Origin: a virus
Length of the DNA stretch: 47,400 nt
Strand: one strand, 5' to 3'
IMG/VR virus record: IMGVR_UViG_3300027749_000177
Coordinates: 1 to 47,400 of that record
Shown: piece after piece, positions 23,213 to 46,628 of the stretch
How positions within the stretch are numbered: the stretch's first letter is position 1
How the letters are laid out: each line of letters begins with the position of its first letter
Position numbers and translations under genes: made by a program
Notes under the pieces: generated by a model
Databases searched by the model: none
The model's input: only the letters and a program-made list of their open reading frames with translations
Told to the model about the DNA's origin: nothing

Positions 23213-24361
23213 TTAATCTGGAACCCAAACCGGATTATTTTCTTCGTCTTGTTCCCAATGACCGGTTCCCGCCCCAGTGCCGTCTTCTTTTACTGGAAGG
23301 TTGGTTTTGGTGTCTACGTAGCCGCCATGGCCATCCGAAATAACGCTTGGGGGCGTGTAACCTACTGAACCGCCCGGTTGCCCGCCGGTTTGAGGAGCAT
23401 TTCCGGTATCCCCATAAGTAGGCGCAGGCCCTTTTTCACCTTTGCTGATCCAGTCCATAAACCGTTCAGCGTAAGATGGCCCGCCGCTTTTATCTTTTGC
23501 AAACGCCGCTGCACCAAGGGAGCCCAAGGTCGCAATTTTGGACAGTGTAGAACTGTCCATTGTGCTGGTGGTGGACGTGGGTATCGACGCGCCGCTCAAG
23601 AGGCTTGCTTTCTTGGCCAACACGTCCAGCGGGAATAGCTCTTTGTTCTGCTCTATCTGCTGCTTTTGCGCGCCAGTGGTAAGTAACTGGTTCACATCGG
23701 TGAGGCCCGAGGTCTGTCTTTGGGTGCCCAAGTTCACGCTGCTGGTGGCTGCATCCCGAATTTTCTGGGCTTCTGCCGTGGCCATGTTGCCTGCGATCTG
23801 GCCTACGTTAACCTGATTCGCGCGCTGGGCCTGCGCGGCCTTGAGCGCATCAGAGTAACCTGATTGCAGCGCTGCGGCCTGCTGGGACAGCGCGCCAATG
23901 TCGGCGTTGGAGATGCCCAGCGCCAGTGCATTGGCGCCGCGCTGCGAGCCAAACTGGCCAGCGCCCACCGCACCAGCGGTAATGCCCGGCGACAAGTTTT
24001 GGGCGATGTTCTGTTGGTTGGCCATCCTGATCTGGTCCACCACGTTCTTGGTGTAGGGGTTCATGTACCCGCCCACCAGATCGGCGGAGCTGGACGTGCC
24101 AGCAGTCAGGTACGGGTTTGCGGCCCCGGTGATGTCTACCGCCGCGCTCTTATTTATCAGGTTACCCGCGGTGTCTAAATCAGGCTTGTAATTGCCCATG
24201 TTGGTGTTCGCTAATTCAAACCCCTTGGTTTGCAAGGGGTCGGCGCCGACGTAATTAGGCGCAGCCGCGCCACCTTGCGTAGCAAGGTCCGTCATGTACT
24301 TGGTGTAATACTCCGGCGTTGTCGTAGTCGTCGTTGCCGATGATTGACCCATATCAGCCAT
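23213..24361 (-). CDS. Structural/ejection-type virion protein with YMNPY motif (382 aa)
   Basis: It belongs to a type common in aquatic phage genomes: a Thr-rich start, PEYYTKYMTDLATQG, then GGYMNPYTKNVVDQIRMANQ and a helical array (NIAQNLSPGITAGAVGAGQF; GSQRGANALALGISNADIGA; LSQQAAALQSGYSDALKAAQ). The C-terminus is Gly/Pro-rich (GGQPGGSVGYTPPSVISDGH). I recall the YMNPY segment from annotated phage structural proteins but cannot name a family. Its start overlaps the end of the upstream 836-residue gene by 8 bases. It probably acts in the virion interior or in DNA delivery. Confidence 0.65.
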   Translation of the reverse strand: MADMGQSSATTTTTTPEYYTKYMTDLATQGGAAAPNYVGADPLQTKGFELANTNMGNYKPDLDTAGNLINKSAAVDITGAANPYLTAGTSSSADLVGGYMNPYTKNVVDQIRMANQQNIAQNLSPGITAGAVGAGQFGSQRGANALALGISNADIGALSQQAAALQSGYSDALKAAQAQRANQVNVGQIAGNMATAEAQKIRDAATSSVNLGTQRQTSGLTDVNQLLTTGAQKQQIEQNKELFPLDVLAKKASLLSGASIPTSTTSTMDSSTLSKIATLGSLGAAAFAKDKSGGPSYAERFMDWISKGEKGPAPTYGDTGNAPQTGGQPGGSVGYTPPSVISDGHGGYVDTKTNLPVKEDGTGAGTGHWEQDEENNPVWVPD

Positions 24362-26864
24362 GTTTTTTCCCCTTTGAGGATTTCAGGTATTCTAGTGGAG
24401 ACTTTGCATCCGGGGGGAGCTTGTCGGGGGGTGCGGAACGTGCCCGAGCTCGGATAGCCTGCACCATCTGGTCCAGTTCCTTGGCCCCGGCCTTGTTGGA
24501 GCCGTTGCCCAGCGCCGAGACTACGTCGGCGGAGAAGACATACTCACCGTTGGCCAGCATCGCGGCGATGTCGTCGCTAGTGCCGTCGCCCTTACCCTCA
24601 ACGTACTTGCCGCCGAGGCTATCAAGGCCCCCAGTGCGGAACAGCGGCGTGCCGTCGTAGTGCGGGTGCGTATGGTCCGGCTGGCCACCTTCGGCCAAGC
24701 GCATGCCCCGCGAGTGCAAAAGCGCCGCGAGCTGGGGTATCACGCTCATTTGCTGCAAAGAGCGCTGCTGGCTTGGCGGGCCCACCTGCTTGAGCGAAAA
24801 CATTTGTCCTTTGGGCTGGGCCAACCCGGTATCTAGGTTACCTAGGTTCTTGAGCGCCGATTGCATGTCGGTATTGGCGTACGAGTCGATCATGGCTTGC
24901 ACATCGGGCTGGCTACCTTCAGCAAAGCGCTGCACCGTACCACCATCGGCGTATATCTGCGGTACTACGTCCTTTTCGGCGTCAGGCGCATACGCTGCCA
25001 GCGCGGCCAAGGCCTTGTTTAGATCGACGTTAGACGGTGCTGTATCGGCTTGCATGGCCAACTCCTTGCGTTCTGGTAGGGTGAGTTGTTTCAAGTGTTC
25101 GTTGTACCCCATCTCTGAAGACCCCATCTTCCCAAGTTTAAATACGTTTCCAGCCGGAGCGTTCATCTCGGTTGTCGTTGGTAGCGCGCCCGTTGGCGCT
25201 GCTGCGGTAGGCGCAGGCGTGGCTGGCGCTTTAGGCACGGCTGGTATTTTAGGAATGGCCGGTATCTTAGGGACAGCCGGTACTTTAGGCGCCACGGTGG
25301 TCGGCAGCGCTGGCTGGCGTATCTCCACCGGGGGCAGCGTCAAGTCCGTGGGTTCTGGGGGCAACGCTTTTTCGCGTATCGTTACGCGATCAAGCGCGGG
25401 GTCCGTTGTACCCACGTTAGGGCTGACCGGTAGCGCCGAATCCGTTCTTACATTGTTTCCGTTAACACCGGTGTTTGTGTCCGTTGTATCTGGGGTCAAT
25501 GCTTTTTCGCGTATCGTTACGCTATCAAGCGCAGAATCCGTCGTGCCCACATTAGGGTTGACCGGTAGCGCTGAGTCCGTTCTAACATTGTTTCCGTTAA
25601 CACCGGTGTTTGTATCTGTTGTGCCCACGTTAGGGCTGACCGGCAAAGGAGAATCCGTTATGGTGTTGTTGCCCGCAGTACCAGTAACTGTTACAGGCGG
25701 CAGTGTCAACTCAGAATCCGTTACGGTATCTGTGGTTGATGGCAAGCCACCGATTGGTTCCGCCGCACGCGCAGCTTCACGCGCAGCTTGCTCTCTATCC
25801 GCTTGCTCTTGGGCAATCTGTTCGGCTGTTGGGGGGTTGAGGGCCGCTACTTGACCGGTTTCAAGCGGAGCCGTACTTATTGGGGCGTTGGTGGTCGATG
25901 GGAGGCCACCGCTTGGCTCTGATGCGCGTATGGCCTCACGCGCAGCTTGCTCCTTATCCGCCTGCTCTTGCGCTTGAGCGTTGCGTTCTCTAAGGAGATT
26001 ATTTTCAATTTGTTGGTCAAACGTGTACCCCATGCTGGATTCGGGCGTAGTTGGAAGACCAGTTTTTTCGTTGGATAGCTTACCCGCAGGCGTGTTATTT
26101 ACGTCGTAAGTTGTGCCGTCAACAGTAACGCCTGTTGGCGTCTTTGAAACATTGCTTCCAAGTTTTTGCGCGACATCAACCATCGCGTTTATGTCGCCGT
26201 GGGCCACCGCACTAGCGGTGTTAACAAGGTTTAAAGCACTTTTTGCGTCTACGGGCACGCCGGGTATGTTGGACGCCGCGTTGGCTATCTTTAATGGGTC
26301 ACCGCTTTGCACCGCTTTGACTATGTTAGCCCCGGTAGACACGTTTTTAAGCATGGCAGTGGTGCTTGGGTCTAAGCCGGGAATGATCTTCCCTGCGCCC
26401 GCAAGTTGAGCCAAAGCTGATAATGGATCACCACGATCTAAAGCCTGAATCCCCCTATACGCAGAGATAAACGGCGCTGCTGGTGGGTACGCCATGGACA
26501 GCACGTTCAACGCAAAATCAGCGAACCCCGGATTGCCTCGGTCCTGAATCGAAGTTTGGCTCCCGCTAGTATCAAAATTAACGTACTGGCTTTTTCCGTT
26601 GTCGTACCGATAGCCAATAGGCGCGCCGTACTCCACTGGCTGTGATGTTCCCGAGCCATGCTGCACTTGTCCTGTAGCATAGATTGGTTCAAGCTCATGG
26701 CCTAATTCTTGTTCTTTTGCAAGAATTTCTGGAGGCTTAGGAACATTAATTTTTCCCGCGCTTACATCCGGCACAACAGGCGCGTTAATTACGTTCCCAA
26801 ACCTATCAATTGCAGGAACAGGGGCATCACTTGGGGCTTCTGGTCTATTTCCGGGGCCGGGCAT
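24354..26864 (-). CDS. Large repeat-containing virion protein with a C-terminal GG-motif domain (836 aa)
   Basis: The start chosen is ATG 26864 (MPGPGNRPEAPSDAPVPAID) with GAGGAGATAGGT, two bases after the upstream stop. The N-terminal half has a modest hydrophobic region (FALNVLSMAYPPAAPFISAY), the middle holds two tandem 45-residue Thr/Asn-rich repeats (DNA at 25366-25635), then a Pro-Lys linker of P-K-I-P-A type. The C-terminus has IYADGGTVQRFAEGS, RLAEGGQPDH, FRTGGLD and then DDIAAMLANGEYVFSADVVS with ALGNGSNKAGAKELDQMVQA, a conserved C-terminal domain of phage virion proteins. It probably is an ejection or internal head protein. Confidence 0.68.
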   Translation of the reverse strand: MPGPGNRPEAPSDAPVPAIDRFGNVINAPVVPDVSAGKINVPKPPEILAKEQELGHELEPIYATGQVQHGSGTSQPVEYGAPIGYRYDNGKSQYVNFDTSGSQTSIQDRGNPGFADFALNVLSMAYPPAAPFISAYRGIQALDRGDPLSALAQLAGAGKIIPGLDPSTTAMLKNVSTGANIVKAVQSGDPLKIANAASNIPGVPVDAKSALNLVNTASAVAHGDINAMVDVAQKLGSNVSKTPTGVTVDGTTYDVNNTPAGKLSNEKTGLPTTPESSMGYTFDQQIENNLLRERNAQAQEQADKEQAAREAIRASEPSGGLPSTTNAPISTAPLETGQVAALNPPTAEQIAQEQADREQAAREAARAAEPIGGLPSTTDTVTDSELTLPPVTVTGTAGNNTITDSPLPVSPNVGTTDTNTGVNGNNVRTDSALPVNPNVGTTDSALDSVTIREKALTPDTTDTNTGVNGNNVRTDSALPVSPNVGTTDPALDRVTIREKALPPEPTDLTLPPVEIRQPALPTTVAPKVPAVPKIPAIPKIPAVPKAPATPAPTAAAPTGALPTTTEMNAPAGNVFKLGKMGSSEMGYNEHLKQLTLPERKELAMQADTAPSNVDLNKALAALAAYAPDAEKDVVPQIYADGGTVQRFAEGSQPDVQAMIDSYANTDMQSALKNLGNLDTGLAQPKGQMFSLKQVGPPSQQRSLQQMSVIPQLAALLHSRGMRLAEGGQPDHTHPHYDGTPLFRTGGLDSLGGKYVEGKGDGTSDDIAAMLANGEYVFSADVVSALGNGSNKAGAKELDQMVQAIRARARSAPPDKLPPDAKSPLEYLKSSKGKKHG
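25366..25635. repeat. Two tandem 135-bp units (45 codons each)
   Basis: Two near-identical 135-base units (starting at 25366 and 25501, both with gctttttcgcgtatcg) lie in frame in the 836-residue virion protein, with a partial third copy beginning near 25620. The differences are mostly silent, so the duplication is kept under selection or recently homogenised. Confidence 0.8.
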
Positions 26865-26866
26865 AC

Positions 26867-27109
26867 CTATCTCCTCAGCGCGTTGTTGAACGCAAACGCC
26901 CAGTCCTGCCACGTCGCAAAGTTGCGGCTGTCAGGAACGCTAGGGAACCGGCCAATACCGGCAATGCCGTCGGCCCACGTGGTCCAAAGGCTCTCGGGCA
27001 CTGTGCCCAGTTGGTTGGCCGCGAACAGCTCGGCCATGAGCGCGCACCAAGCGTCCCACGTGACGCCGCGAGGGTCGTAGACCTGCTTTGATTGATTGAT
27101 TGCGATCAT
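26867..27109 (-). CDS. Small Trp-rich virion-region protein (80 aa)
   Basis: ATG 27109 overlaps the upstream stop (ATGA). The product is rich in Trp and Ala (TWDAWCALMAELFAANQLGT, SLWTTWADGIAGIGRFPSVP, TWQDWAFAFNNALRR), probably helical. It lies between the tail-plug candidate and the ejection-protein block. No family recognised. Confidence 0.65.
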   Translation of the reverse strand: MIAINQSKQVYDPRGVTWDAWCALMAELFAANQLGTVPESLWTTWADGIAGIGRFPSVPDSRNFATWQDWAFAFNNALRR

Positions 27110-28869
27110 GGGTTGCCCGTTCCGCGGACATCGCCCGTGGTGATAGACAACAGCACGCGGCCCGTCTGGTACGTCCCACCAGCGGTGTTTGATTCAAAGC
27201 GCAGCCGCATTTCGCGGCGCTGCTCGCGCATGTCAATCTTGAGCGTGCCGGGCGAGAAGACGTAGGGGTCCGAGTCCACCACGGTGTCGTCGGCGTAGCC
27301 TTGGCCGGTCACCACCACGGTCATGTCGCCCTCTTGCACAAAATCAGGTTCAATGCGCTCTAGGCGCGTCCATAGGTTGTCGCCGGGCTGCTGCACCGAG
27401 CCCACCAGCCCGCCCAGCGTGCCGATGCTGTAGGTCTCAAAGTAGCTCTGCACGGCGTCCACGTTGGTCAGGTAGATGCTGTCCACGCCGGTCTCGTGCT
27501 GCCACAGCGTGTACTTGCCCGCGGTGTTGGCCTCGTTGCCCGCCCAAATGGGCTTGAAAAACACCTCGGAGAACACGCCAGCAGAGCGGCGCGCGCCGAT
27601 AGCCTCCCCGGCGTCGTACCACGTCTTATCGCGCACGTTGTAGATGATCGCGTCGGTGCATTCGGTGGCGTCGCCCTTGGGGTAGAACCACCAGATTTCA
27701 CCATAACGCGGGACCTTGGTCGCCCAGACCTTCTGGCGCTGGGTCATGTTCACGTTGTCAAAGAAGTAGTTTTGGTTGTTGCCGTTGGGGATTTCTTGCA
27801 CCACGCCGTTGTACGACAAAAAGCGGTCCACACCAGCCCAGTAGAAGATGCCATCGTACTCGATGACCGAGCTGGAGGACATGATAGAGGTCTGGCTGCT
27901 CACGAGGTCGTAGGCCCAGTAGTAATTCACGCCGCCCGAGGACGATGGCTGGAAGCTCACACGGATTAGGGCGTCAACGGCCCAGAACAGGCCAGAGGGC
28001 GACGTGGAGCCACCACGGATAGGTAGCCCCCTGACGATCTTGCCGGTGGCCACGTTGGTCGCGTTGGCGTCCGGGCTGACCCAGTTGGCAAAGTCGCCGG
28101 CGCTGGAGTTGCGGATCAGGCCGTTGCTGCCGTACACGAACAGGTACGGGTGGATCACCACGCAGCCGCCCGATACGGCGATGTTGTTGTCAAAGGTCGC
28201 CGTGATGCTGCCCGTGGCGGTCGCTGCGGCGGACATCGTGACAGCGGTGCCCACCACCAAGGTCACCGTAGTGCCTGACGGGATGCCCGTGCCGCTGATG
28301 CTCTGGCCCGCGGCCACGCGCACGTTGTTGGCCGCAAGGGTAAAGGTAGTGGTGCTATTGGTTGAGCCCGCAGCCGTGAACACGCCCACCTTGGACATCG
28401 TGAGCGATGAGTAGCTGCCGGGGAACTCGCCGTACAGCACGGGCGTCTCGACCGTGGAGGTGATGAAGCTGAGGTTCTGCCCCGGGTGCGCCACCAAGTT
28501 GTTGGTGTTGTTGCCGGTGGAGTCATACGCGATGTCAAACTGCCACAAATTGTTGGCGTTGGCCGTGAAGTTGGACAAGGAGTAGGCATAGGGGCCCGAA
28601 CCCAGCCCGCCGCTGGTCCCAGTGATCCACTGCTCAAGGCCACCACTGTACCCAGATACCACGTAGTTAAAGCCGTTCACGGCGGTCATGGCCATGCCGC
28701 GTGATATGCCGGTTGCGTTCAGAAAGATGGCGTCGTAGCCGCCTATCTTGCGGGGCCTGCCACGTTGGAAGCGCACCCAGCGGCCATCGACAAAACACGG
28801 CGCATCGAACACCGTGCCGTCGCGCTGTATTCCCGGGGGGACCTCCATTGAGATGACTTTTTTAGTCAA
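27106..28869 (-). CDS. Tail hub/plug-like protein with inserted Ig-like domain (587 aa)
   Basis: The N-terminus (VPPGIQRDGTVFDAPCFVDG, then RWVRFQRGRPRKIGGYDAIF) and repeated Trp/Tyr-containing strand motifs (LFWAVDALIRVSF, YYWAYDLVSS, IFYWAGVDRFLSYNG, IWWFYPKG) suggest a beta-propeller like the packaged-DNA stabilisation protein gp10 of P22; I give this as a candidate only. Residues of about 175-225 (TFTLAANNVRVAAGQSISGT, TVTLVVGTAVTMSAAATATG) interrupt the propeller with an Ig-like phage domain. Its ATG overlaps the upstream stop. With the adaptor genes nearby it fits a short-tail hub. Confidence 0.55.
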   Translation of the reverse strand: MTKKVISMEVPPGIQRDGTVFDAPCFVDGRWVRFQRGRPRKIGGYDAIFLNATGISRGMAMTAVNGFNYVVSGYSGGLEQWITGTSGGLGSGPYAYSLSNFTANANNLWQFDIAYDSTGNNTNNLVAHPGQNLSFITSTVETPVLYGEFPGSYSSLTMSKVGVFTAAGSTNSTTTFTLAANNVRVAAGQSISGTGIPSGTTVTLVVGTAVTMSAAATATGSITATFDNNIAVSGGCVVIHPYLFVYGSNGLIRNSSAGDFANWVSPDANATNVATGKIVRGLPIRGGSTSPSGLFWAVDALIRVSFQPSSSGGVNYYWAYDLVSSQTSIMSSSSVIEYDGIFYWAGVDRFLSYNGVVQEIPNGNNQNYFFDNVNMTQRQKVWATKVPRYGEIWWFYPKGDATECTDAIIYNVRDKTWYDAGEAIGARRSAGVFSEVFFKPIWAGNEANTAGKYTLWQHETGVDSIYLTNVDAVQSYFETYSIGTLGGLVGSVQQPGDNLWTRLERIEPDFVQEGDMTVVVTGQGYADDTVVDSDPYVFSPGTLKIDMREQRREMRLRFESNTAGGTYQTGRVLLSITTGDVRGTGNP

Positions 28870-30142: not shown

Positions 30143-30784
30143 TTATGAGTCCTGAGCAATTGCTTGGCGGTCGCCGATGCGGAGCTGGTCTTCGGCCTTG
30201 AGCGCGGCCATGGCGCTGTCAAATAGCCCCGACCAGATAGCCAAGCGGGGGTCGTCCTTCACAAAGGGCGCGGTCTGCTTTAGCGTGCCGTAGAGCATCG
30301 CGTTGGGCGCATTCTGGGTGAGCCAGTTGGTCTGGTTAACGGAGGACAACGGCTCTAAACGGGTGTAGCACAGCGCCTCGAACGAGAAAGCGGCGCTGGG
30401 CGTGGGCGCTATGAACCAGTGGTCGTAGTCGTAGTCGGCGTAGTACAGCGGCGTGCCGGTAGCGGTGACGTTGGGCCAGTAGCTCGACAGGTACTCCAGC
30501 TTGCGCAGGTACATGGGCGTCTTGACCCCCGTGGCGTCCACCATGGTCATGGAGACCGTCTTGCGCCAGCGCGCAGGCTTGGCCAGCACCGGGTTGCTGA
30601 TGTTCATGGTGGCGTCCACCACCTCCATCTGGCCAAGCGTCTTGATGTCTTGGGCGATCTCAAACTCGGCTAAGGTGATGGCCACCGGGATAAATGCGAC
30701 GACGGCGGGATCGCTACGCTCAAGGTACTGGAGAACCGTACTTGTGAGGCTGTCGTAGGTTAGAACGTAGGATGGCGTCGTCAT
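30143..30784 (-). CDS. Phage adaptor-like protein (213 aa)
   Basis: The N-terminal helices (LTSTVLQYLERSDPAVVAFI, PVAITLAEFEIAQDIKTLGQ) and the following beta part (MYLRKLEYLSSYWPNVTATG, HWFIAPTPSAAFSFEALCYT) look like the SU10-type adaptor proteins that link portal and tail; the C-terminus is helical (SAMAALKAEDQLRIGDRQAI). It sits beside the tail-plug candidate and fibre. Family assignment is from memory and moderate. Confidence 0.55.
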   Translation of the reverse strand: MTTPSYVLTYDSLTSTVLQYLERSDPAVVAFIPVAITLAEFEIAQDIKTLGQMEVVDATMNISNPVLAKPARWRKTVSMTMVDATGVKTPMYLRKLEYLSSYWPNVTATGTPLYYADYDYDHWFIAPTPSAAFSFEALCYTRLEPLSSVNQTNWLTQNAPNAMLYGTLKQTAPFVKDDPRLAIWSGLFDSAMAALKAEDQLRIGDRQAIAQDS

Positions 30785-36995: not shown

Positions 36996-39900
36996 TCAAT
37001 AGCCGAAGATCATCGCCATTGCGATACTTTTGCCTGTTGTTACGCCGGTTACGGAAGTGGTGATAACAAGAGCTTCCACAATGTCGCCTGCCGCGCAAGC
37101 TACGCCAAGGGTGAAGTCTGTTCCGCTAGAGGCAGTGTAATCAGAGCCGGTTAGTAATACACCATTTACGTAAATCTGAAGGTAGCCTACCGCATAAGTA
37201 ACTGTAAACGCCGTTTGACCAGCCGTAGCGGTAAAAGTTGTCCTGCTGTATGCGCTTGCACCGCCACTAGCGGCGTTGATCGTAACCACGCCTGTGCCGC
37301 CCCCCGGTGAAATAGTTACGTTTGTTCCCGCAACAATTTGGGTCACGCCACCAGTTGCCGCCGCCCACGATGCCGTAGTTCCATTAGAGGTCAGGACGTA
37401 GCCGGTTGTGCCGATGCCGAGCCGGGTAGCGCTATTTGTGCCGTTGCCGATGATCAGATCGCCGGTGGTCGTTACCGGCGATAGCGCGTTAAAGGCCGCG
37501 CCTGCGGTTGTTTGGCCCGTGCCGCCGTTAGCGATGGCCACCGTGCCGGTGACGTTCCCGGCTGTGGCCGCATTTAAGTTGGCCACCTGAGTGGTCGATG
37601 CCACGGTAAACGGGGCCGTGCCGGTAGCCACCGTGGACGTAATCGCCCCAGAGGCCGATACCGTGGTGAACGCTCCTGTGGTGGCCGTAGTCGCGCCAAC
37701 AGTGCCGTTGATGTTGATAGAAGCCGTGCCTGTCAGGTTGGTGACCGTGCCGCTGCTAGGCGTGCCTAATGCGCCGCCGTTAACCACAAAGGCGCCAGCA
37801 GTGCCAGTATTTACGCCCAAAGCCGTTACGACGCCTGTGCCAGTGGTGGTGGTGCTCGGAGCAGCCCCGGCGCCGCCGCCTATCACCAAAGCGTTTGTGG
37901 TCAACACAGCAGACGATGCCCATGCGCTTGCGCTTGAAAAGTAGGGTATGCCGCCCGAAGTGCCCGCGACTGTTAAGGCCAAAGTGCCACTTGTTGTGAT
38001 CGGGGAGCCGCCAACCGAAATAATGCCGCCGGTAAAGCTCTGCGCCACGCTTGTGACCGTGCCGCCTGTGCCAGTGGCCGATATGGATATCGTTCCCGCG
38101 CCGTTGGTGATTGAGACGCCGGTTCCGGCTGATAGCGTAGCCCGCGTAAAGCCCGTCCCGTTTCCTATGTCTAAGGCCCCGTTCGCGGGGGTCGAGGTGA
38201 GCCCCGTACCGCCGTTAGCTACGGCCACCGTGCCGGTCACGTTGGCTGCGTTGCCCGAGATGTTGCCGCTTACCGCACTGCCAGAGATCGCAATTGACGT
38301 GTTGGTGACGCTGGTAACTTGGCCTTGGGCGTTGGTGACAAATACCGGCACTTGGCTCGCCGAGCCGTATGTACCCGCCGTGCCAATGTTAGCAATAGAA
38401 AACTGGTTGGTTACAAGGTTTAACCCCGTACCAGCCGTGTACGTCTGGACCGCCGCAAATTGGATAAAAACAATGGACGTCGTGCCTACCGTGATAGGCA
38501 GGGGCGTCTGCTGGACCCAAGACGTATTGGCGTTGGTAGTGCCCGATATAACCAAAAGCAAGTCGCCAATGTCTATCTCGTTGGTCCCAGAGCCGCTGGT
38601 GTCATAGTCCGTGGCGCGGGTTAAGACGTACGCAACACCAGCCGTGCCTGCGGTGGTCAGCGTGTACACGCCGTTAAATGCCGCGCTGGGGGTCGTGTTG
38701 TTGACGTAGGACCCAACCTCGTTCTTTATGAGGATGCGCTTGCCAACGTCGCCAGATACAAAGGTGTACCCGTCAATAGTCAGAGTGCCGACCGCATTAG
38801 CGGTTATCGTTGCGCCCACCCCGCTTGCGCCGTTGTTATAGGTATAAGCAGACAAAGCCGCTGCGGTAGCGTAGTTACAAGCCGCATGAAAATTGATACC
38901 CGTGGCAATTGAGTCAGCGTATGACTTGTTTACAATGTCGTTGCTCGAACTTGGGGCCGTGGTAATTGTGCCCGTTGTTAACGCTATTGACGTGATGTCG
39001 GTGTTCGCGCCGCTCTGGGCTGCGCTCAGGTTAGTCCTAGCGCCTGCCGCGGTTGTGGCGCCAGTGCCGCCGTTGACCACCGCGACTATGCCAGTGACGT
39101 TGGCCGCTGTGCCAGTGGTGTTCTGGTTCAGCGTCGGGACATCCCCCGCAACGATGGCCGCAAGGACCGCATTTGTGCCGTTAGAGCGCAGGTAATAGCC
39201 CGAGGTCTGCGCGCCGGTCAAAGCGGTGATAGCCGCAGCAGCCGTCGTCTGCCCAGTGCCGCCGTTAGCAATTGGCAAGGCCGTACCAGAGTAGCTGATC
39301 GCCAGCGTACCGGACGTGGTGATCGGACTACCTGAGATGGACAAGAACGCGGGGACCGTCGCCGCCACGGATGTGACCGTGCCGCCCGCACCGGTGGCCG
39401 ATAACGTACCGGCAGCGAATAAAACGCCCGAACCGATGGTCACGTTGCTGAACCCACCAGAGCCGTTGCCGTAAAGGATAGACGCGCCGCTAGTTGCCGG
39501 GGCGTAGTCAGTACCGGACACTGCCGCCGAGATAGCCGTCCCGTTGCCTTTTAAGAGCCCAGAAACCGACGTAGAAAGCGTTATCGCGGGGGTAGTGGTG
39601 CTGGTGGCCACCGTGCCAGAAAAACCGTTGGCAGAGACAACCGACACGCTCGTTACCGTGCCGCCCGGATTGCTTGAGTTAATTGTCTGGTTTGGCCAAG
39701 TACCCGTTATGGTGACATTCGTACCGGCTACTAAATTTGGTGTTGTTGTCCCTGTTCCGCCGTTGGCTACGGGAAGCGCGCTGCCGGAGTAATCTATGGC
39801 CAGCGTGCCAGACGTGGTGATCGGGCTACCAGATACGGACAAGAACGCCGGAACCGTAGCCGCAACCGAAGTCACCGTGCCGCTACCGCTAGTAGTGCTT

Positions 39901-40730
39901 ATGGTCTGGTTAGGCCAAGTGCCCGTGACGTTTATGTTGGACCCGGCAACTATCGAGGGGGTGCTGGTCCCAGTACCGCCGTTGGCGACGTTGAGTATCC
40001 CACTAAGTGTAATAGCCCCCGTGGAGGCCGTAGACGGGCTAAACCCAGTCGTTCCCGCGCTGAAGGTAGTTACCCCGCCAGCAGAGCCGTTTGAGGCCGC
40101 TGTGATGCGCCCTTGGGCATCCACGGTCAAGTTGGTGTTGGTGTACGAGCCCGCCGAGACCGCGGTGTTTGTGAGCCCGATGGTGGGGTTGTTGGCGCCG
40201 TTGCCATCGGTAACCGTGATCTGGCCAGCAGTGCCGGTTATGGTGCGGTTGGCTATGGTCGTACCGCCCACGATGGCCAGCATGCCTGTACCAGACGAAC
40301 TGGCGATAGCAGCGGCCACGCCGGTCAATTGGAAGGTCGGGTTACCCGCGATGCCGTCACCGCTAGTGACCGATAGGCCCAAGCCGCTGGTGCTCAAGGT
40401 ACGGGCCGCGAGGGCCGTGGAGCTAGTCTTAGCCACGATGCCCGTTCCGAGGCTGTTTAGATTAGCCAGCGCGCCGGCAAGGTTAACCTGTAGCGTGCTC
40501 TGCGAGCCACCATCGGCCAAACTGAGCCCAGAACCCACCGCAAGGGCGCGGCTGTTGGGCAGTGTAGGTTCGTTGTTGGCCGTCAGGAAGCTCTGCGTCT
40601 GGATGGGCGACCCGGCCAGCGCAGCGGTCGTGGTCTGCACCGTGACGCCGTTTTGGACAATAGGCACCGCTTCCGTCCCAGTAATCGTCTGGGCTTGTGG
40701 AAGCTGGGTGATGGTTACATTGATCGACAT
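36996..40730 (-). CDS. Giant tail fibre with NGGTG repeats (1244 aa)
   Basis: A very long fibre, rich in Thr, Gly, Val and Ala. Repeats of the type VANGGTG(T/A)TT(P/A), SGSPITTSGTLAI and PNLVAGTNVTITGTWPNQTI occur many times; the fold expected is a triple beta-helix shaft. A distinct domain of about 190 residues interrupts the shaft in the middle (NDIVNKSYADSIATGINFHA; GYTFVSGDVGKRILIKNEVG; GVAYVLTRATDYDTSGSGTN). The C-terminus (TFTATAGQTAFTVTYAVGYL, QIYVNGVLLTGSDYTASSGT) is a separate phage fibre tip domain. Near-identical DNA stretches 500 bases apart (39262-39385, 39765-39885) can recombine. It is the likely main receptor-binding fibre. Confidence 0.82.
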   Translation of the reverse strand: MSINVTITQLPQAQTITGTEAVPIVQNGVTVQTTTAALAGSPIQTQSFLTANNEPTLPNSRALAVGSGLSLADGGSQSTLQVNLAGALANLNSLGTGIVAKTSSTALAARTLSTSGLGLSVTSGDGIAGNPTFQLTGVAAAIASSSGTGMLAIVGGTTIANRTITGTAGQITVTDGNGANNPTIGLTNTAVSAGSYTNTNLTVDAQGRITAASNGSAGGVTTFSAGTTGFSPSTASTGAITLSGILNVANGGTGTSTPSIVAGSNINVTGTWPNQTISTTSGSGTVTSVAATVPAFLSVSGSPITTSGTLAIDYSGSALPVANGGTGTTTPNLVAGTNVTITGTWPNQTINSSNPGGTVTSVSVVSANGFSGTVATSTTTPAITLSTSVSGLLKGNGTAISAAVSGTDYAPATSGASILYGNGSGGFSNVTIGSGVLFAAGTLSATGAGGTVTSVAATVPAFLSISGSPITTSGTLAISYSGTALPIANGGTGQTTAAAAITALTGAQTSGYYLRSNGTNAVLAAIVAGDVPTLNQNTTGTAANVTGIVAVVNGGTGATTAAGARTNLSAAQSGANTDITSIALTTGTITTAPSSSNDIVNKSYADSIATGINFHAACNYATAAALSAYTYNNGASGVGATITANAVGTLTIDGYTFVSGDVGKRILIKNEVGSYVNNTTPSAAFNGVYTLTTAGTAGVAYVLTRATDYDTSGSGTNEIDIGDLLLVISGTTNANTSWVQQTPLPITVGTTSIVFIQFAAVQTYTAGTGLNLVTNQFSIANIGTAGTYGSASQVPVFVTNAQGQVTSVTNTSIAISGSAVSGNISGNAANVTGTVAVANGGTGLTSTPANGALDIGNGTGFTRATLSAGTGVSITNGAGTISISATGTGGTVTSVAQSFTGGIISVGGSPITTSGTLALTVAGTSGGIPYFSSASAWASSAVLTTNALVIGGGAGAAPSTTTTGTGVVTALGVNTGTAGAFVVNGGALGTPSSGTVTNLTGTASININGTVGATTATTGAFTTVSASGAITSTVATGTAPFTVASTTQVANLNAATAGNVTGTVAIANGGTGQTTAGAAFNALSPVTTTGDLIIGNGTNSATRLGIGTTGYVLTSNGTTASWAAATGGVTQIVAGTNVTISPGGGTGVVTINAASGGASAYSRTTFTATAGQTAFTVTYAVGYLQIYVNGVLLTGSDYTASSGTDFTLGVACAAGDIVEALVITTSVTGVTTGKSIAMAMIFGY
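39262..39885. repeat. Pair of ~120-bp imperfect repeats inside the giant fibre gene
   Basis: The stretches 39262-39385 and 39765-39885 are alike at most positions and code the same VAATVPAFLSxSGSPITTSG unit followed by TLAI. They mark a shaft repeat period of about 500 bases and are the best site for deletion or duplication of fibre segments. Confidence 0.6.
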
Positions 40731-40732
40731 GT

Positions 40733-41074
40733 TCAGGGCTGCGGGGCCAGTCCGCTGTTATTGCCGTTGTTCTCCGGCGTGTTCGTGTTCTGCTCGGTGC
40801 TGAGTATCTCACCGCCATAAGGCGTCGTGACTATGTCGCCGCCAGTAACTGCCACGCTCACATCAGGGCGCGGAAAGCGGATCGTGATGCGCTCAGTCTG
40901 GCGAGCAGCCAGCCGGTATGGGTCAATCTGGTCTGCGCAACCTTGGTCGCACACCAGCAGGCCGGGGAAGTTGGGGTCGTTGCGCGCAGTTGAGTGCGCG
41001 CGCTTCATCTTGCACCTGTCGCATACGAAGATCGCAATGTCGGAGCCGCCACGGGTGTCAAGGAACCGGGGCAT
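40733..41074 (-). CDS. Zinc-finger-like protein before the fibre gene (113 aa)
   Basis: The N-terminal half has C18xxC21 and C42xxxC46 (IFVCDRCKMKRAH; LVCDQGCADQ), a probable zinc-binding fold, then FPRPDVSVAVTGGDIVT and an Asn/Thr-rich tail. Zinc-finger proteins of this type stand near the tail genes of several aquatic podoviruses in my recollection. ATG 41074 follows GAGGTAGATACT. Role unknown. Confidence 0.65.
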   Translation of the reverse strand: MPRFLDTRGGSDIAIFVCDRCKMKRAHSTARNDPNFPGLLVCDQGCADQIDPYRLAARQTERITIRFPRPDVSVAVTGGDIVTTPYGGEILSTEQNTNTPENNGNNSGLAPQP

Positions 41075-41079
41075 AGTAT

Positions 41080-42150
41080 CTACCTCGAATAGACCGAAAT
41101 ATTAGGCGCCAAAAATATGGGCGACTTGTCGCGCTCTTCTTGCTCGGCCATTTGGAAGTATTTTTCCGCTTGGCCTTCAAGGTACTGGATGCGCGGCATA
41201 TCAACGCCGGGAAGCTCCTGTGCCATCTGGTGGCCCAGCATGTTCTGGATGGCCATGAGCCAGCGGTCAGGGATGGCCAACTGGCCGCTCAAGGCGCCCA
41301 CGTCCTGCACATAGGCCGAGTACCAGACCGTCATCTGCACAAACGGGTCCGAGGGCGTTGGCCACACCGTTATGGTGGCCTGCGGGATCGTGCGGTTAAG
41401 CCAGAACTGGAACGGCTGGTTGGCCGTAAAGTTCTTATTGGGCAGGTTGGTGTAGTCATCGCGGTTGAGCCGCGACATAGTGATCTCGGTGGAGTTGTTG
41501 CCCACGTAGAACTCAGCCACGCTCAAAGTGCCGCCGCCCGTCTCGCGCATGCGGTAATACTGCGCTGTGACGCCCGGATCAATGTCGTACCAGAGCCACT
41601 GTCCGCTTACCCACGTAACGACACCGGTGTCATACAGAGTGTTCCACGTGGAACCGTCGTTGGACCATTCCAGCAGGATGTGAAACGAGCCCGAGGTGGC
41701 GGGCAGGATACCGATTGACCCGGCGTATATTGAGTTGTTTGTACCGTAGTTGACGCCAATGTAGCCGTTGGGCGAGGTCTGGGTGTCCGCCGTGGCCGTG
41801 TTGTTGTCAAAGGCTAACTGGGCGTTACCCGAAGACGCAAAGTATCCGTTGGCAATATTTGGCGTAGGGCGGTTTAACGTGCGATAGAGCGCGTTTAGCA
41901 CATCGTTGCCACCTACGGGCAGCAGGTACTCGTACTGGTCAGGATTGAGGCCGATTACGGTTTTTTTGATGGCGAAATACTGGATGCCTTGGTTTATCAA
42001 GTTGCTCAGGATGTAAAACAGCGACTCCTTGGCCGCTTGCACCTGCTCAACCGTCAATTCCTCGGCCAACTTCCCAGCACGTCGCGCCCCATGGTCAATG
42101 AGCTTTTGGACCGTGATGATGGTCTGGCCAACAGTACCTGAGTAAGCCAT
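41080..42150 (-). CDS. P22 gp4-like tail adaptor with inserted sugar-binding-like domain (356 aa)
   Basis: The N-terminal helical part (VQKLIDHGARRAGKLAEELT; VQAAKESLFYILSNLINQGI) resembles the head-to-tail adaptor gp4 of P22, and the C-terminal part (DRWLMAIQNMLGHQMAQELP; RIQYLEGQAEKYFQMAEQEE) completes it. Between them, about residues 100-215, lies SGNAQLAFDNNTATADTQTS, NGYIGVNYG, FHILLEWSNDGSTWNTLYDT, YYRMRETGGGTLSVAEFYVG, the pattern of an F5/8-type galactose-binding-like domain. Without it the protein would have about the usual adaptor length. It would therefore sit at the portal-tail junction with an exposed domain that may bind sugars. Assignment of both parts is by motif reading. Confidence 0.6.
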   Translation of the reverse strand: MAYSGTVGQTIITVQKLIDHGARRAGKLAEELTVEQVQAAKESLFYILSNLINQGIQYFAIKKTVIGLNPDQYEYLLPVGGNDVLNALYRTLNRPTPNIANGYFASSGNAQLAFDNNTATADTQTSPNGYIGVNYGTNNSIYAGSIGILPATSGSFHILLEWSNDGSTWNTLYDTGVVTWVSGQWLWYDIDPGVTAQYYRMRETGGGTLSVAEFYVGNNSTEITMSRLNRDDYTNLPNKNFTANQPFQFWLNRTIPQATITVWPTPSDPFVQMTVWYSAYVQDVGALSGQLAIPDRWLMAIQNMLGHQMAQELPGVDMPRIQYLEGQAEKYFQMAEQEERDKSPIFLAPNISVYSR

Positions 42151-42159
42151 GGCTTTTCC

Positions 42160-42471
42160 TTACCAGCAAGGCGCTTTTGAGGACTTGGTAACGCTAGACA
42201 CGCGGCGGGTGGTTATGTGGCCACCTTTTTTGTACCGTGGAGCCGTTTGCAGCGCCGTAGATGCGGCGTTGATATTCTGCAAAGTCGGGTTTTGGTCTTG
42301 ATTTGGTGCGTTCGCGCTGTCGGGCTGGCCGCTTCCGCCGTAGCTAAGGTTAAGCGGTGGAGCCGCGCTTGGCGCTTTAGAGTTGTCTCCGGGCGGCGCG
42401 GTGAACCGGGAAGCCGTACCCACCACGTCACCAAGTGCGCCACCGTTTGCAAATTTTTTAACTTTGGCCAT
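42160..42471 (-). CDS. Small GG-motif protein with Cys-Trp tail (103 aa)
   Basis: A small, Pro/Ala/Asn-rich, disordered-looking protein with two GG motifs (KKFANGGALG near the start, RYKKGGHITT near the end) and a C-terminal SSKAPCW. It belongs to the GG-motif group with the proteins at 1, 24.4, 42.7 and 43.6 kb. ATG 42471 follows TAAGGAACGAAC, where the previous stop is fused to the ribosome binding site. Confidence 0.65.
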   Translation of the reverse strand: MAKVKKFANGGALGDVVGTASRFTAPPGDNSKAPSAAPPLNLSYGGSGQPDSANAPNQDQNPTLQNINAASTALQTAPRYKKGGHITTRRVSSVTKSSKAPCW

Positions 42472-42731: not shown

Positions 42732-43130
42732 TTACCAGCAAGACTTCATCATCTTGCCGCCTGATTTCATTTTGGTGGTTTTGGCTGAGTCTTTAAAAGC
42801 CTCGGCAGTTGGTGCGCCTTTGGAGCCGGGTTTGCGCATGTGCTCTTTAGAGCCATGGGCGATACGTTCACGTTTGGCGTTAATGTTGGCATACAAGCCG
42901 CCTTCGGCCATGTAGCCCATCTTGTGCCGTACTTGCTCAGGCAAGTTAGGCAAGCCTTTGTTGCTCTCAGGGATTTCTTTAAGAGACCCGCCGCCTGCCT
43001 TTTTTACGGGCGCGGCGCGCTTGGTGCTGTACGCAATCGCCACCGCTTGTTTGACAGGTTTACCCGCATTCACTTCGGCGGCGATGTTCTTCTTAAAGGC
43101 TTTTTCAGATTTGGATTTGATCAAAGGCAT
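42732..43130 (-). CDS. DUF6496-like basic protein with GG motifs and Cys-Trp tail (132 aa)
   Basis: The N-terminus (MPLIKSKSEKAFKKNIAAEV, then NAGKPVKQAVAIAYSTKRAA) is the small Lys-rich domain seen in DUF6496-like phage and bacterial proteins. Then follow KKAGGGSLKE, MAEGGLYANINAKRERIAHG and SKEHMRKPGSKGAPTAEAF, a unit common in aquatic phages, and KMKSGGKMMKSCW at the end. The strong positive charge suggests DNA binding, for example inside the head. ATG 43130 after TAAGGACGTATC. Confidence 0.72.
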   Translation of the reverse strand: MPLIKSKSEKAFKKNIAAEVNAGKPVKQAVAIAYSTKRAAPVKKAGGGSLKEIPESNKGLPNLPEQVRHKMGYMAEGGLYANINAKRERIAHGSKEHMRKPGSKGAPTAEAFKDSAKTTKMKSGGKMMKSCW

Positions 43131-43587: not shown

Positions 43588-44661
43588 CTAGCACTTGGCT
43601 CGTCCGCCGCCTTTGCGGGCCATGGGTGGATTTACCATCCCCCGACCTGCTCCAGCAGAAGGCTTCTTGCCCAGTAAACGCATCATTGCGTTCATCGCGT
43701 CAGACGGAGCGTTACGAATGGCATTGGCTATCCCCATATCGTCATCGCTTGGCCCAACAGACTTGCCGTAGGCGCCGCCGCTCATGTCGCGCATCGGCAT
43801 TTGCTGGTCATCCATGCTGCCGCCCATAGCTTTGCGCATAACCTTGCCACCCTTTTTGAAGGTGCCCGATTGCGCGGTGTTGCTTACTGGTTTTGACATC
43901 GGCTTGCTAGGCATTGCTACGGCGTGGCCAGCGTTGTTAACACTGCCCCCCGTAGCGAAGTGCTTTTTTGCAGCACCGCCTTTTTTGTAGCCGCCAGCAT
44001 TGGCTTCTTTGACTTCACCAGTTACGGTGTTGGTCTTGCCGGGTTTAGAAGTATCAGCCGGACGATTTTCCCAGTTGGTAGAGCCGCCGTTTTTGAAGCC
44101 GCCAGAGTTGGACATGCGCACGCCACCAGTGCCGGTAGCACTGTCTTTTTTGTCGCCATCCACTACCTTTGTCTTCATAAACTTGCCCGCGTTGCCTTCA
44201 ATGGTTCCGCCGGTTTTGTAGCCAGCCGGTTTGCCCATCTTGACCATTCCAGTGCCGTGGGCGCTGTCTTTCTTGTCGCCGTCAACTACTTTGGTCGTGC
44301 CGCCGTTCTTTAGCTTCAGCTTGGTGCCCTTGCCGCCTTCGTGCTCTTGCATGTCGTGCTGCTTAAAAGCCTTTTTGATCATGGCTTTATCTTGGGACAT
44401 GTCACCGCCTTTAGCCATGCCGCCTTTTTTCATCAAAGGAGCAGCCATAGCAGCGCGACGTGCCATCATAGAAGGAGCTTTGGGGGCAGCAGCCGGCGCA
44501 GAATACGAGGTGTCGGGCATGGTATTCATGCTCTTAGAACGCATATTCTCAAAGCCGTACTCGCCGCCGCGGTTCATGCCGACGTGACCACCTTTTTTGA
44601 GCTTCAGGATAACTGAGGGCTCAGTGGTCTCCATCTTCACCATTGGTTTAAATTGGCCCAT
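43588..44661 (-). CDS. GG-motif repeat protein of the head region (357 aa)
   Basis: A basic, low-complexity protein with about 13 GG motifs, among them LKKGGHVG, MKKGGMAKGGDMS, LKNGGTTK, YKTGGTIE, FKNGGSTN, YKKGGAAK, FATGGSVN, FKKGGKVM and AMGGSMD. A unit of TKVVDGDKKDSAxGTGxVxM occurs twice (about residues 123-146 and 166-186). There is no known domain. Its place between two capsid-type genes suggests an internal head, scaffold or DNA-binding protein. The C-terminus is ARKGGGRAKC. ATG 44661 after TAAGGAGAGTAACC. Confidence 0.68.
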   Translation of the reverse strand: MGQFKPMVKMETTEPSVILKLKKGGHVGMNRGGEYGFENMRSKSMNTMPDTSYSAPAAAPKAPSMMARRAAMAAPLMKKGGMAKGGDMSQDKAMIKKAFKQHDMQEHEGGKGTKLKLKNGGTTKVVDGDKKDSAHGTGMVKMGKPAGYKTGGTIEGNAGKFMKTKVVDGDKKDSATGTGGVRMSNSGGFKNGGSTNWENRPADTSKPGKTNTVTGEVKEANAGGYKKGGAAKKHFATGGSVNNAGHAVAMPSKPMSKPVSNTAQSGTFKKGGKVMRKAMGGSMDDQQMPMRDMSGGAYGKSVGPSDDDMGIANAIRNAPSDAMNAMMRLLGKKPSAGAGRGMVNPPMARKGGGRAKC

Positions 44662-45713: not shown

Positions 45714-46628
45714 TTAAGCGCCGGGAGTACCGTACATCGCACGTGGGTCGGTGAAGCCGACATCGTAACGCTCGGTAGCCTTGTAACGCATGGAGTCGGT
45801 TTCGAAGTCACCTTCCATGGTCTTTTCCAGACGACGACGCATCAAGAGCTTCATGCCCTCGGGCGCATCAGTCTGGACCCACCAAGCGGTGGCACTGGTC
45901 AAACGGCTCAACACAGCAGCGCCCTCGTCCAACAAACCAATGGATTTCACTGGGTTGATGTCGTTGTTGGCGTTGCCGGTGCGCAGAACCGATTTAAGCA
46001 GCACTTCGGCTTGGAAGATGTTGCCCGGGGCCACCACCAATTGGCGGGGAACCAGACGAATCTTCTTGCCGTTGTTGTCCACGGCCTGACGGACTTGGAT
46101 CAACATTTGCTCAAGGGAGGTTTGCGACAGAACCGCAGCAGTAGCGAGTTGGTTGCTGAAAGTACCGTTCACGATGGGGTGAGCAGTATTGATCAGCGAG
46201 ACGCCATCGCCGCCGGGGTAGGCGCTGTTGAACGCTACGTTCAAGACGTTTGCGGACAACAGTTCCTTGGTTTCCACCAGCGATTGTGCCAAGTGACGTG
46301 CGTACACTTGACCCAAGCGGATGTGGTCGCCGTCTTCTACCAGCACTTTGGTCAGGGCAAATGCCAGACCATAGACCTTGTAGATGTAGCGCTTCAGGAA
46401 CAGAACGCCACCCTGTTGGTACGTGACGGGAGTACCGTCAGGCAACTGGGGCGCCGCGCCGAAACCGTACAGTACGGGCTCTTCGTGGTAGTTACGTGGG
46501 ATGCCGTCTTCTTCACGGAACACGCGGCTCCATTCGTCGGCGCGTTGGTCATAGACTCCGTCGAAGCATTCGTTGAGGATAGGCTCAACGATACTGCGAA
46601 AGTCCGTACTTCTCATTGGTGCAGCCAT
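45714..46628 (-). CDS. Major capsid protein (304 aa)
   Basis: MRSTDFRSIVEPILNECFDG, then RADEWSRVFREEDGIPRNYH, and the spine region QSLVETKELLSANVLNVAFN and LINTAHPIVNGTFSNQLATA, followed by LVPRQLVVAPGNIFQAEVLL and WWVQTDAPEGMKLLMRRRLE are typical of HK97-fold phage major capsid proteins. It forms the shell around the scaffold core. The ribosome binding site is AAGGAG, the start overlaps nothing, and the terminator at 45.68 kb ends the highly expressed unit. The start MAAPMRS at ATG 46628. Confidence 0.88.
   Translation of the reverse strand: MAAPMRSTDFRSIVEPILNECFDGVYDQRADEWSRVFREEDGIPRNYHEEPVLYGFGAAPQLPDGTPVTYQQGGVLFLKRYIYKVYGLAFALTKVLVEDGDHIRLGQVYARHLAQSLVETKELLSANVLNVAFNSAYPGGDGVSLINTAHPIVNGTFSNQLATAAVLSQTSLEQMLIQVRQAVDNNGKKIRLVPRQLVVAPGNIFQAEVLLKSVLRTGNANNDINPVKSIGLLDEGAAVLSRLTSATAWWVQTDAPEGMKLLMRRRLEKTMEGDFETDSMRYKATERYDVGFTDPRAMYGTPGA

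Follow-up and report, generated by a model that had tools for sequence, protein, structure and literature searches.

CBM32, or discoidin, domains usually occur in secreted enzymes and tailspikes. In phages, a C-terminal discoidin-like domain has been described on the tailspike gp49 of phage LKA1 (PMC5701251), and discoidin-like domains are reported in jumbo-phage proteins (PMC7824862). Carbohydrate-binding inserts in the Dit protein of skunaviruses are described as necessary for full infection of EPS-positive strains and as enabling phages to adsorb to such hosts, and the type of insert tracks the EPS type (PMC10688798). Reports on the adaptors of T7 and SU10 describe a helix bundle, a beta domain that lies between the helix pairs and docks the fibres, and a C-terminal embracing segment (PMC6702177, PMC9509320). 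Here we describe an adaptor-family protein from a 47.4-kb virus record (the window, i.e. the whole stretch of DNA analyzed) that encodes a terminase, capsid protein, two adaptor-family proteins, fibre genes, and a nozzle-like protein. Its closest precedent is the evolved Dit of lactococcal skunaviruses.

An adaptor-family protein with an inserted domain

The product of ORF 41080–42150 is confirmed as an adaptor-family neck protein with ~125 extra residues (Table 1). It probably has a role in head-tail joining.

Table 1. Features of the window discussed in the text, with their coordinates and the evidence for each assignment.
Feature	Coordinates	Strand	Size or extent	Content and evidence
Window protein (product of ORF)	41080..42150	-	356 aa	
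Adaptor framework, N-terminal part	41872..42150	-	residues 1–93	Two bundle helices and first beta-strands; phrog_12985 positions 2–69, predicted helices/strands, alignment with insertless CRP-902 protein
Inserted CBM32/F5-8 type C-like beta-sandwich (predicted)	41497..41871	-	residues 94–218	PF00754, predicted fold, absence in orthologues, exchange
Adaptor framework, C-terminal part	41080..41496	-	residues 219–356 and stop	Rest of beta-strands, two bundle helices, C-terminal tail
Second adaptor-family protein, without insert	30143..30784	-	213 aa	PF24175 E 1.2e-19
Nozzle/packaged-DNA stabilisation-like protein	27106..28869	-	587 aa	phrog_3287 E 5.4e-27; 61% identity over 508 aa with 'phage stabilization protein' of MW202545
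Tail-fibre protein, N-terminus VTITQLP...	36996..40730	-	1244 aa	46% identity over 287 N-terminal aa with MW202545 tail fibre; N-terminus is the likely docking module
Small protein between adaptor and fibre	40733..41074	-	113 aa	55% identity with corresponding MW202545 protein (122 aa)
Major capsid protein (synteny anchor)	45714..46628	-	304 aa	PF25209 E 1.7e-11; 95% identity with MW202545

The framework is recognizable on both sides of the insert. Positions 2–69 of phrog_12985 (238 positions) are matched by residues 12–77 of the window protein and positions 98–189 by residues 221–313, so that the two matches flank the insert. Pfam SU10_adaptor (PF24175; curated cut-off 27 bits) aligned with residues 220–310 (E 1.3e-3, 19.6 bits) and scored higher on the C-terminal piece alone (41083–41502; E 1.1e-4, 23.1 bits), and it matched 24 of 25 homologues at E 0.01 or better. 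The original prediction had proposed a search for adaptor homologues lacking the insert, and these were found in Roseobacter phage CRP-902 (226 aa), Planktothrix phage Pag-Yong1 (215 aa), and MW202675 (230 aa). It had also taken the ends of the protein for a gp4-like adaptor of normal length; the length holds (flanks of ~231 residues in total vs 226 in the CRP-902 protein), whereas the label is better replaced by the SU10/T7-type adaptor family. Profile alignment of the insert-bearing and insertless families (hhalign, probability 99.9%, E 1.1e-32, query 2–353 on template 10–234, 223 columns) leaves out the insert only. Gene order agrees as well: compared with CRP-902 and two further insertless loci (L161 and L126), the window shares the major capsid protein (40–43% identity), a 138-aa gene directly upstream (34–36%), and the second adaptor-like protein downstream (27–29%). 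A sequence search of the insertless set against the PDB returned chance matches only.

Sized against the insertless orthologues, the insert comprises ~125 residues (~94–218). The ORF coordinates given in the original prediction are exact, and its three motifs lie in the ORF, at residues 128–136 (NGYIGVNYG), 162–174 (WSNDGSTWNTLYD), and 198–215 (YYRMRETGGGTLSVAEFY). Its claim of an F5/8-type interruption is upheld by the insertless orthologues and the predicted fold, the ~115 residues it allowed being somewhat too few. Pfam F5_F8_type_C (PF00754; curated cut-off 28.2 bits) matched residues 105–205 of the whole protein at E 2.1e-4 (21.8 bits) and the insert piece alone (41494–41871) at E 2.2e-5 (25.0–25.1 bits). 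At E 0.01 or better it matched 16 of 25 whole homologues, and 18 of the 25 inserts when these were searched alone (best E 2.7e-9). Among 16 related records, 10 had a PF00754 match, one each and always in an open frame of 353–364 aa, which is the size of the adaptor gene; one of the 16 passed the curated cut-off (G015, the record that holds locus L081; 30.4 bits). Comparison of the insert profile with solved CBMs gave a weak sequence match (best E 0.23), too weak to assign a ligand. Core residues of the insert are invariant in all 25 sequences.

The AlphaFold2 model of the window protein (25-sequence alignment, mean pLDDT 76.3) predicts a compact beta-sandwich for the insert with the CBM32/F5-8C (galactose-binding-like) fold. 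Confidence is highest in the insert (pLDDT ~90), mostly 72–89 in the adaptor part, and low at the ends and in loops. Outside the insert, the model contains helices at residues 14–24 and 34–53, strands at 61–92 and 220–294, helices at 295–312 and 318–342, and a tail at 343–356, a candidate embracing loop. Two helices, beta-strands, insert, beta-strands, two helices, and tail thus follow one another in the order of the T7/SU10 adaptors. The best Foldseek match in the PDB was CBM32 structure 5zu6 (E 4.2e-8), CBM32 structures filled the PDB matches of the whole model, and VIA comparison with the CBM32 domains of AlyQ and AlyB gave a Z of ~16 (16.1) with an rmsd of 2.1–2.3 over 121–127 residues. 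Among viral predicted structures, a 231-aa 'Tail tubular protein A' ranked sixth (E 6.5e-8). The fold of an uncultured phage protein of 350 aa matched over the full length (TM 0.73), indicating that the architecture of the window protein also occurs elsewhere. The model of an insertless orthologue, built from 17 near-identical sequences, reached a mean pLDDT of 40 and was left out of the comparison. A prediction for the whole protein had been called for at the outset, with a single continuous fold in all homologues as the contrary outcome; what emerged is a separate high-confidence beta-sandwich within a helix/beta adaptor framework, alongside homologues that lack it.

Several otherwise unrelated proteins of the window contain short repeats of the YKKGG, MAKGG, FANGG, and MAEGG type (genes 2–2467, 24354–26912, 42160–42471, 42732–43130, and 43588–44661, all on the minus strand). 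An ad hoc pattern matched 28 times across the tested genes, as against a mean of 7.2 and a maximum of 19 after shuffling, and 15 of the matches lie in the 43588–44661 protein. These motifs are possibly a virion or processing signal.

Distribution, exchange, and selection

Relatives of the window protein are encoded in at least 588 of at least 599 matched viral-contig stretches, the best 80 of which were fetched. By best match, 308 loci fell into the window class (82), the Caulobacter-phage class (RW, 79), and two insertless classes (CRP, 83; M, 64). Intact proteins of 351–361 aa are encoded at 78 of the 82 window-class loci, and the other four carry odd-length, truncated, or fused frames. The Caulobacter-phage class (328–345 aa) has a trimmed insert. 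Its ~328-aa proteins occur in Caulobacter phages RW, GB2A, RLK, and KcrB, whose host is a laboratory bacterium, and in many viral contigs (L173–L252; L083, 8001–8984), with ~28 residues gone, including the first strand region and some loops, and the trimmed insert resembles an intact lectin less closely. When the core alone was used for tree building, a single branch parted 45 insert-bearing from 26 insertless rows, a split that a single gain (or loss) could account for; this tree has long branches and was computed by a quick method after removal of near-duplicates and 12 irregular rows (L085 being put back as reference).

Irregular frames were also seen at individual loci. A 350-aa frame of the insertless class (L263, 3001 onward) has no insert but a C-terminal continuation that resembles the small neighbour protein, either through natural fusion or because a stop codon was lost. 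Two frames are broken, by a stop inside the insert after 203 residues (L040, 1796–2848) and by loss of frame after the insert (L172, 1–516; Akkermansiaceae MAG contig), reflecting either sequencing error or decay. At L019, a 199-aa frame (MTKIITRQEAKAAGLIRYFTGKPCSAAGHVDERYTRNGEC...) separates the adaptor from the small neighbour gene and, by eye, looks like a homing-endonuclease-type insertion.

Judged from these sequences, the insert behaves as an exchangeable cassette that is swapped as a unit between related phages. Across 63 window-class proteins (7 rows left out), mean identity was 78% in the framework and 63% in the insert, and the two values do not vary together. The window protein and that of locus L072 share 91% of framework residues and 42% of the insert, with nucleotide identity of 80–90% up to residue 90, a drop at residue ~91–93, ~33–63% inside the insert, recovery at ~217, and 83–95% over most of the remainder. 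L010 and L017 are related in the opposite way (framework 80%, insert 92%). In 314 pairs the N flanks are at least 85% identical; identity fell below 60% in 95 of these pairs for the insert and in none for the C flank. Three insert types (A, as in the window protein; B, as in L072; and C, as in L079) require six changes on the framework tree vs a minimum of two, a count made after removal of near-duplicates and from which well-supported branches alone force just two changes, of type A. Residues 120–124, 150–157, and 202–207 are examples of positions conserved in a type-specific manner. A framework clade of 25 rows, named ahead of the insert tree, was recovered by each flank alone (support 83 for the N-terminal and 99 for the C-terminal flank) and rejected by the insert (p-AU 2.5e-6).

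Faster evolution of the insert does not explain this pattern and was ruled out on two counts, namely that the L010 and L017 inserts are more alike than their cores and that the 25-row clade, though rejected by the insert, has the support of both flanks. Both parts are under purifying selection, with a median dN/dS in same-type pairs of ~0.17 for the insert (74 pairs) and 0.044 for the framework. Because of this selection and the fold match at Z ~16, the insert is well beyond chance.

Possible roles of the neck insert

We hypothesize that the neck-borne insert binds a glycan or capsule, that is, polysaccharide of the host envelope, with a probability of roughly 0.55. Exchange as a unit suggests that it helps to recognize differing bacterial surfaces, and the host-surface or capsule contacts first proposed for this locus become more likely with it. 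Weighing against this reading are the weak sequence matches to solved CBMs, the scores of the window protein below the Pfam cut-offs of both families, and the trimmed insert of the Caulobacter-phage class, besides the second adaptor-family protein and a residual link of the insert to neighbouring genes (see below). Ring position, copy number, sugar binding, and an effect on adsorption are what we infer in the following scheme. In a phage of the short-tailed type, ORF 41080–42150 would encode a portal-tail adaptor-family protein, into whose beta domain an ancestor may have taken up a CBM32/F5-8 type C-like domain. Since the beta domain of T7 and SU10 forms the fibre dock outside a 12-subunit ring, up to 12 copies of the insert should project from the neck near the fibre bases if the analogy holds. 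It would most likely bind capsule, exopolysaccharide, or O-antigen. On a phage lying near the cell, the lectin-like neck domain would come into contact with the polysaccharide coat and reinforce binding by the fibres, lending avidity or easing passage through the coat beside the receptor-binding fibres. Hosts vary their surface sugars, and phages would consequently swap the domain as a cassette while keeping the ring framework; swaps between near-identical frameworks are to be expected where variable host sugars exert selection on the part exchanged.

The main alternative is that the insert is a structural brace that binds no sugar and either widens the fibre dock or fills a gap between ring, capsid vertex, and fibre base. 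We consider this unlikely, though several observations are in its favour. The insert sits in the part of the protein that, in the adaptors described for T7 and SU10, docks the fibres (PMC6702177, PMC9509320), it occurs almost throughout two large clades instead of being scattered, and its trimmed form in Caulobacter phages suggests a role that survives the loss of loops. A brace should nevertheless co-evolve with the framework, against which the insert is exchanged.

The fibres bear on the same question, as fibre N-termini would be expected to follow the insert if it served docking. In the window, ~350 bases separate the adaptor gene from the fibre gene downstream. An ad hoc regular expression, a match to which is not proof of homology, picked out the N-terminal module of the fibre at 37 of 56 loci, and the module accompanies insert types A, B, and C alike, which speaks against a brace; at the other 19 loci, a stretch of 1.9 kb contained no such motif. 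Identity of the fibre N-terminus had a partial correlation of 0.63 with the framework and of 0.22 with the insert (0 of 1000 permutations as high in either case), and the insert correlated weakly with the small neighbour once core identity was removed (partial correlation 0.35). By these two values, some link of the insert to neighbouring genes remains, though a weak one, and it counts towards a brace. Profile searches (E < 1e-3) detected the module at 19 of 64 M-class loci, where it stands beside insertless adaptors, and at none of 79 RW and 83 CRP loci; the M class is the one for which its presence is proven in this way. The insert is therefore not required for that kind of fibre, which weakens both the idea that docking depends on it and the brace reading.

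A further alternative concerns the carrier. The window protein might have a different place in the neck or tail, as a further member of this family, with the 213-aa protein as the true adaptor, which we regard as doubtful. The smaller protein matches PF24175 far better (by E-value, 1.2e-19 vs 1.3e-3), and it resembles the Head-to-Tail adapter 9nwi (E 8e-5), from Pseudomonas phage Pa223 according to a table in PMC13299392, and the SU10 adaptor (gp11) 7z47 (E 0.0042). Profile comparison of the window-protein core with the paralogue set of the 213-aa protein was weak (probability 2.3%). Against this, the insertless orthologues of the window protein are annotated as tail adaptor or portal-adaptor, and they reach SU10_adaptor scores above the cut-off of 27 bits at L082 (52.4) and L088 (37.4) and just below it at L085 (25.7). 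Relatives of the 213-aa protein occur at both insert-bearing and insertless loci, which makes two adaptor-type rings possible in these phages; both proteins may form rings, and the window protein may be the second or other neck ring. Its exact ring position is unsure because the genome encodes a second adaptor-family protein, and the finding of an insertion stands whichever of the two is the portal adaptor.

Ig-like decorations are thought to bind environmental polysaccharide or particles. That the insert is likewise a binder of such material rather than of the host, or a tolerated decoration of little present use, is improbable: it evolves faster than the core, but purifying selection persists, core residues are invariant throughout the 25 sequences, and intact proteins prevail in the window class.

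Glycan binding at the neck remains our preferred reading. We suggest more tentatively, at somewhat under even odds, that as many as 12 exchangeable lectin-like domains in a ring on the neck form a second modular layer of host recognition, swapped independently of the tail fibres while the joint stays constant. Should the domain bind host sugars, a neck protein would partly set the host range of a large and mainly environmental group of phages, and host prediction centred on fibres and tailspikes would miss this protein, annotated as 'tail adaptor' or 'hypothetical protein'. The principle of the evolved Dit, a lectin in a ring protein, would then reach the head-tail joint of another tail type.

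Comparison with described systems

Discoidin-like domains on tailspikes and in jumbo-phage proteins and lectin inserts in Dit are already known; within open-licence PMC papers, we found no report of an adaptor with a discoidin, galactose-binding, or carbohydrate-binding domain, or of cassette exchange of such a domain. The CBM32/F5-8 type C (discoidin) domains of the alginate lyases AlyQ and AlyB and of Clostridium perfringens GH84C have the fold predicted for the insert and its length. The likeness is one of fold and length; such domains are typical of secreted enzymes and tailspikes, whereas the insert lies in an adaptor-family protein. LKA1 gp49 likewise bears a discoidin-like domain on a phage virion, but on the receptor-binding tailspike and not in the neck (PMC5701251).

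The gp11 proteins of SU10 and T7 share with the window protein the adaptor layout and adjacent fibre and nozzle genes; the excerpts of these reports that were available describe no lectin-like domain (PMC9509320, PMC6702177), whereas the window protein has its beta domain split by ~125 residues.

The evolved Dit comes closest. The function of Dit inserts has been tested experimentally, according to PMC10688798, and the window insert is known from sequence and a model. Both systems combine a conserved ring-type virion protein with an inserted domain of carbohydrate-binding type, and both include insertless orthologues and several exchangeable insert groups; the role described for Dit inserts beside the main receptor-binding protein is the one we propose here. 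The evolved Dit carries BppA-like inserts and makes up the distal tail ring in phages with long tails that infect Gram-positive bacteria (PMC10688798). In the window family, the carrier belongs to the adaptor family, the phages have a nozzle, and the insert is CBM32/F5-8C-like, making this family a parallel to the evolved Dit rather than a member of it.
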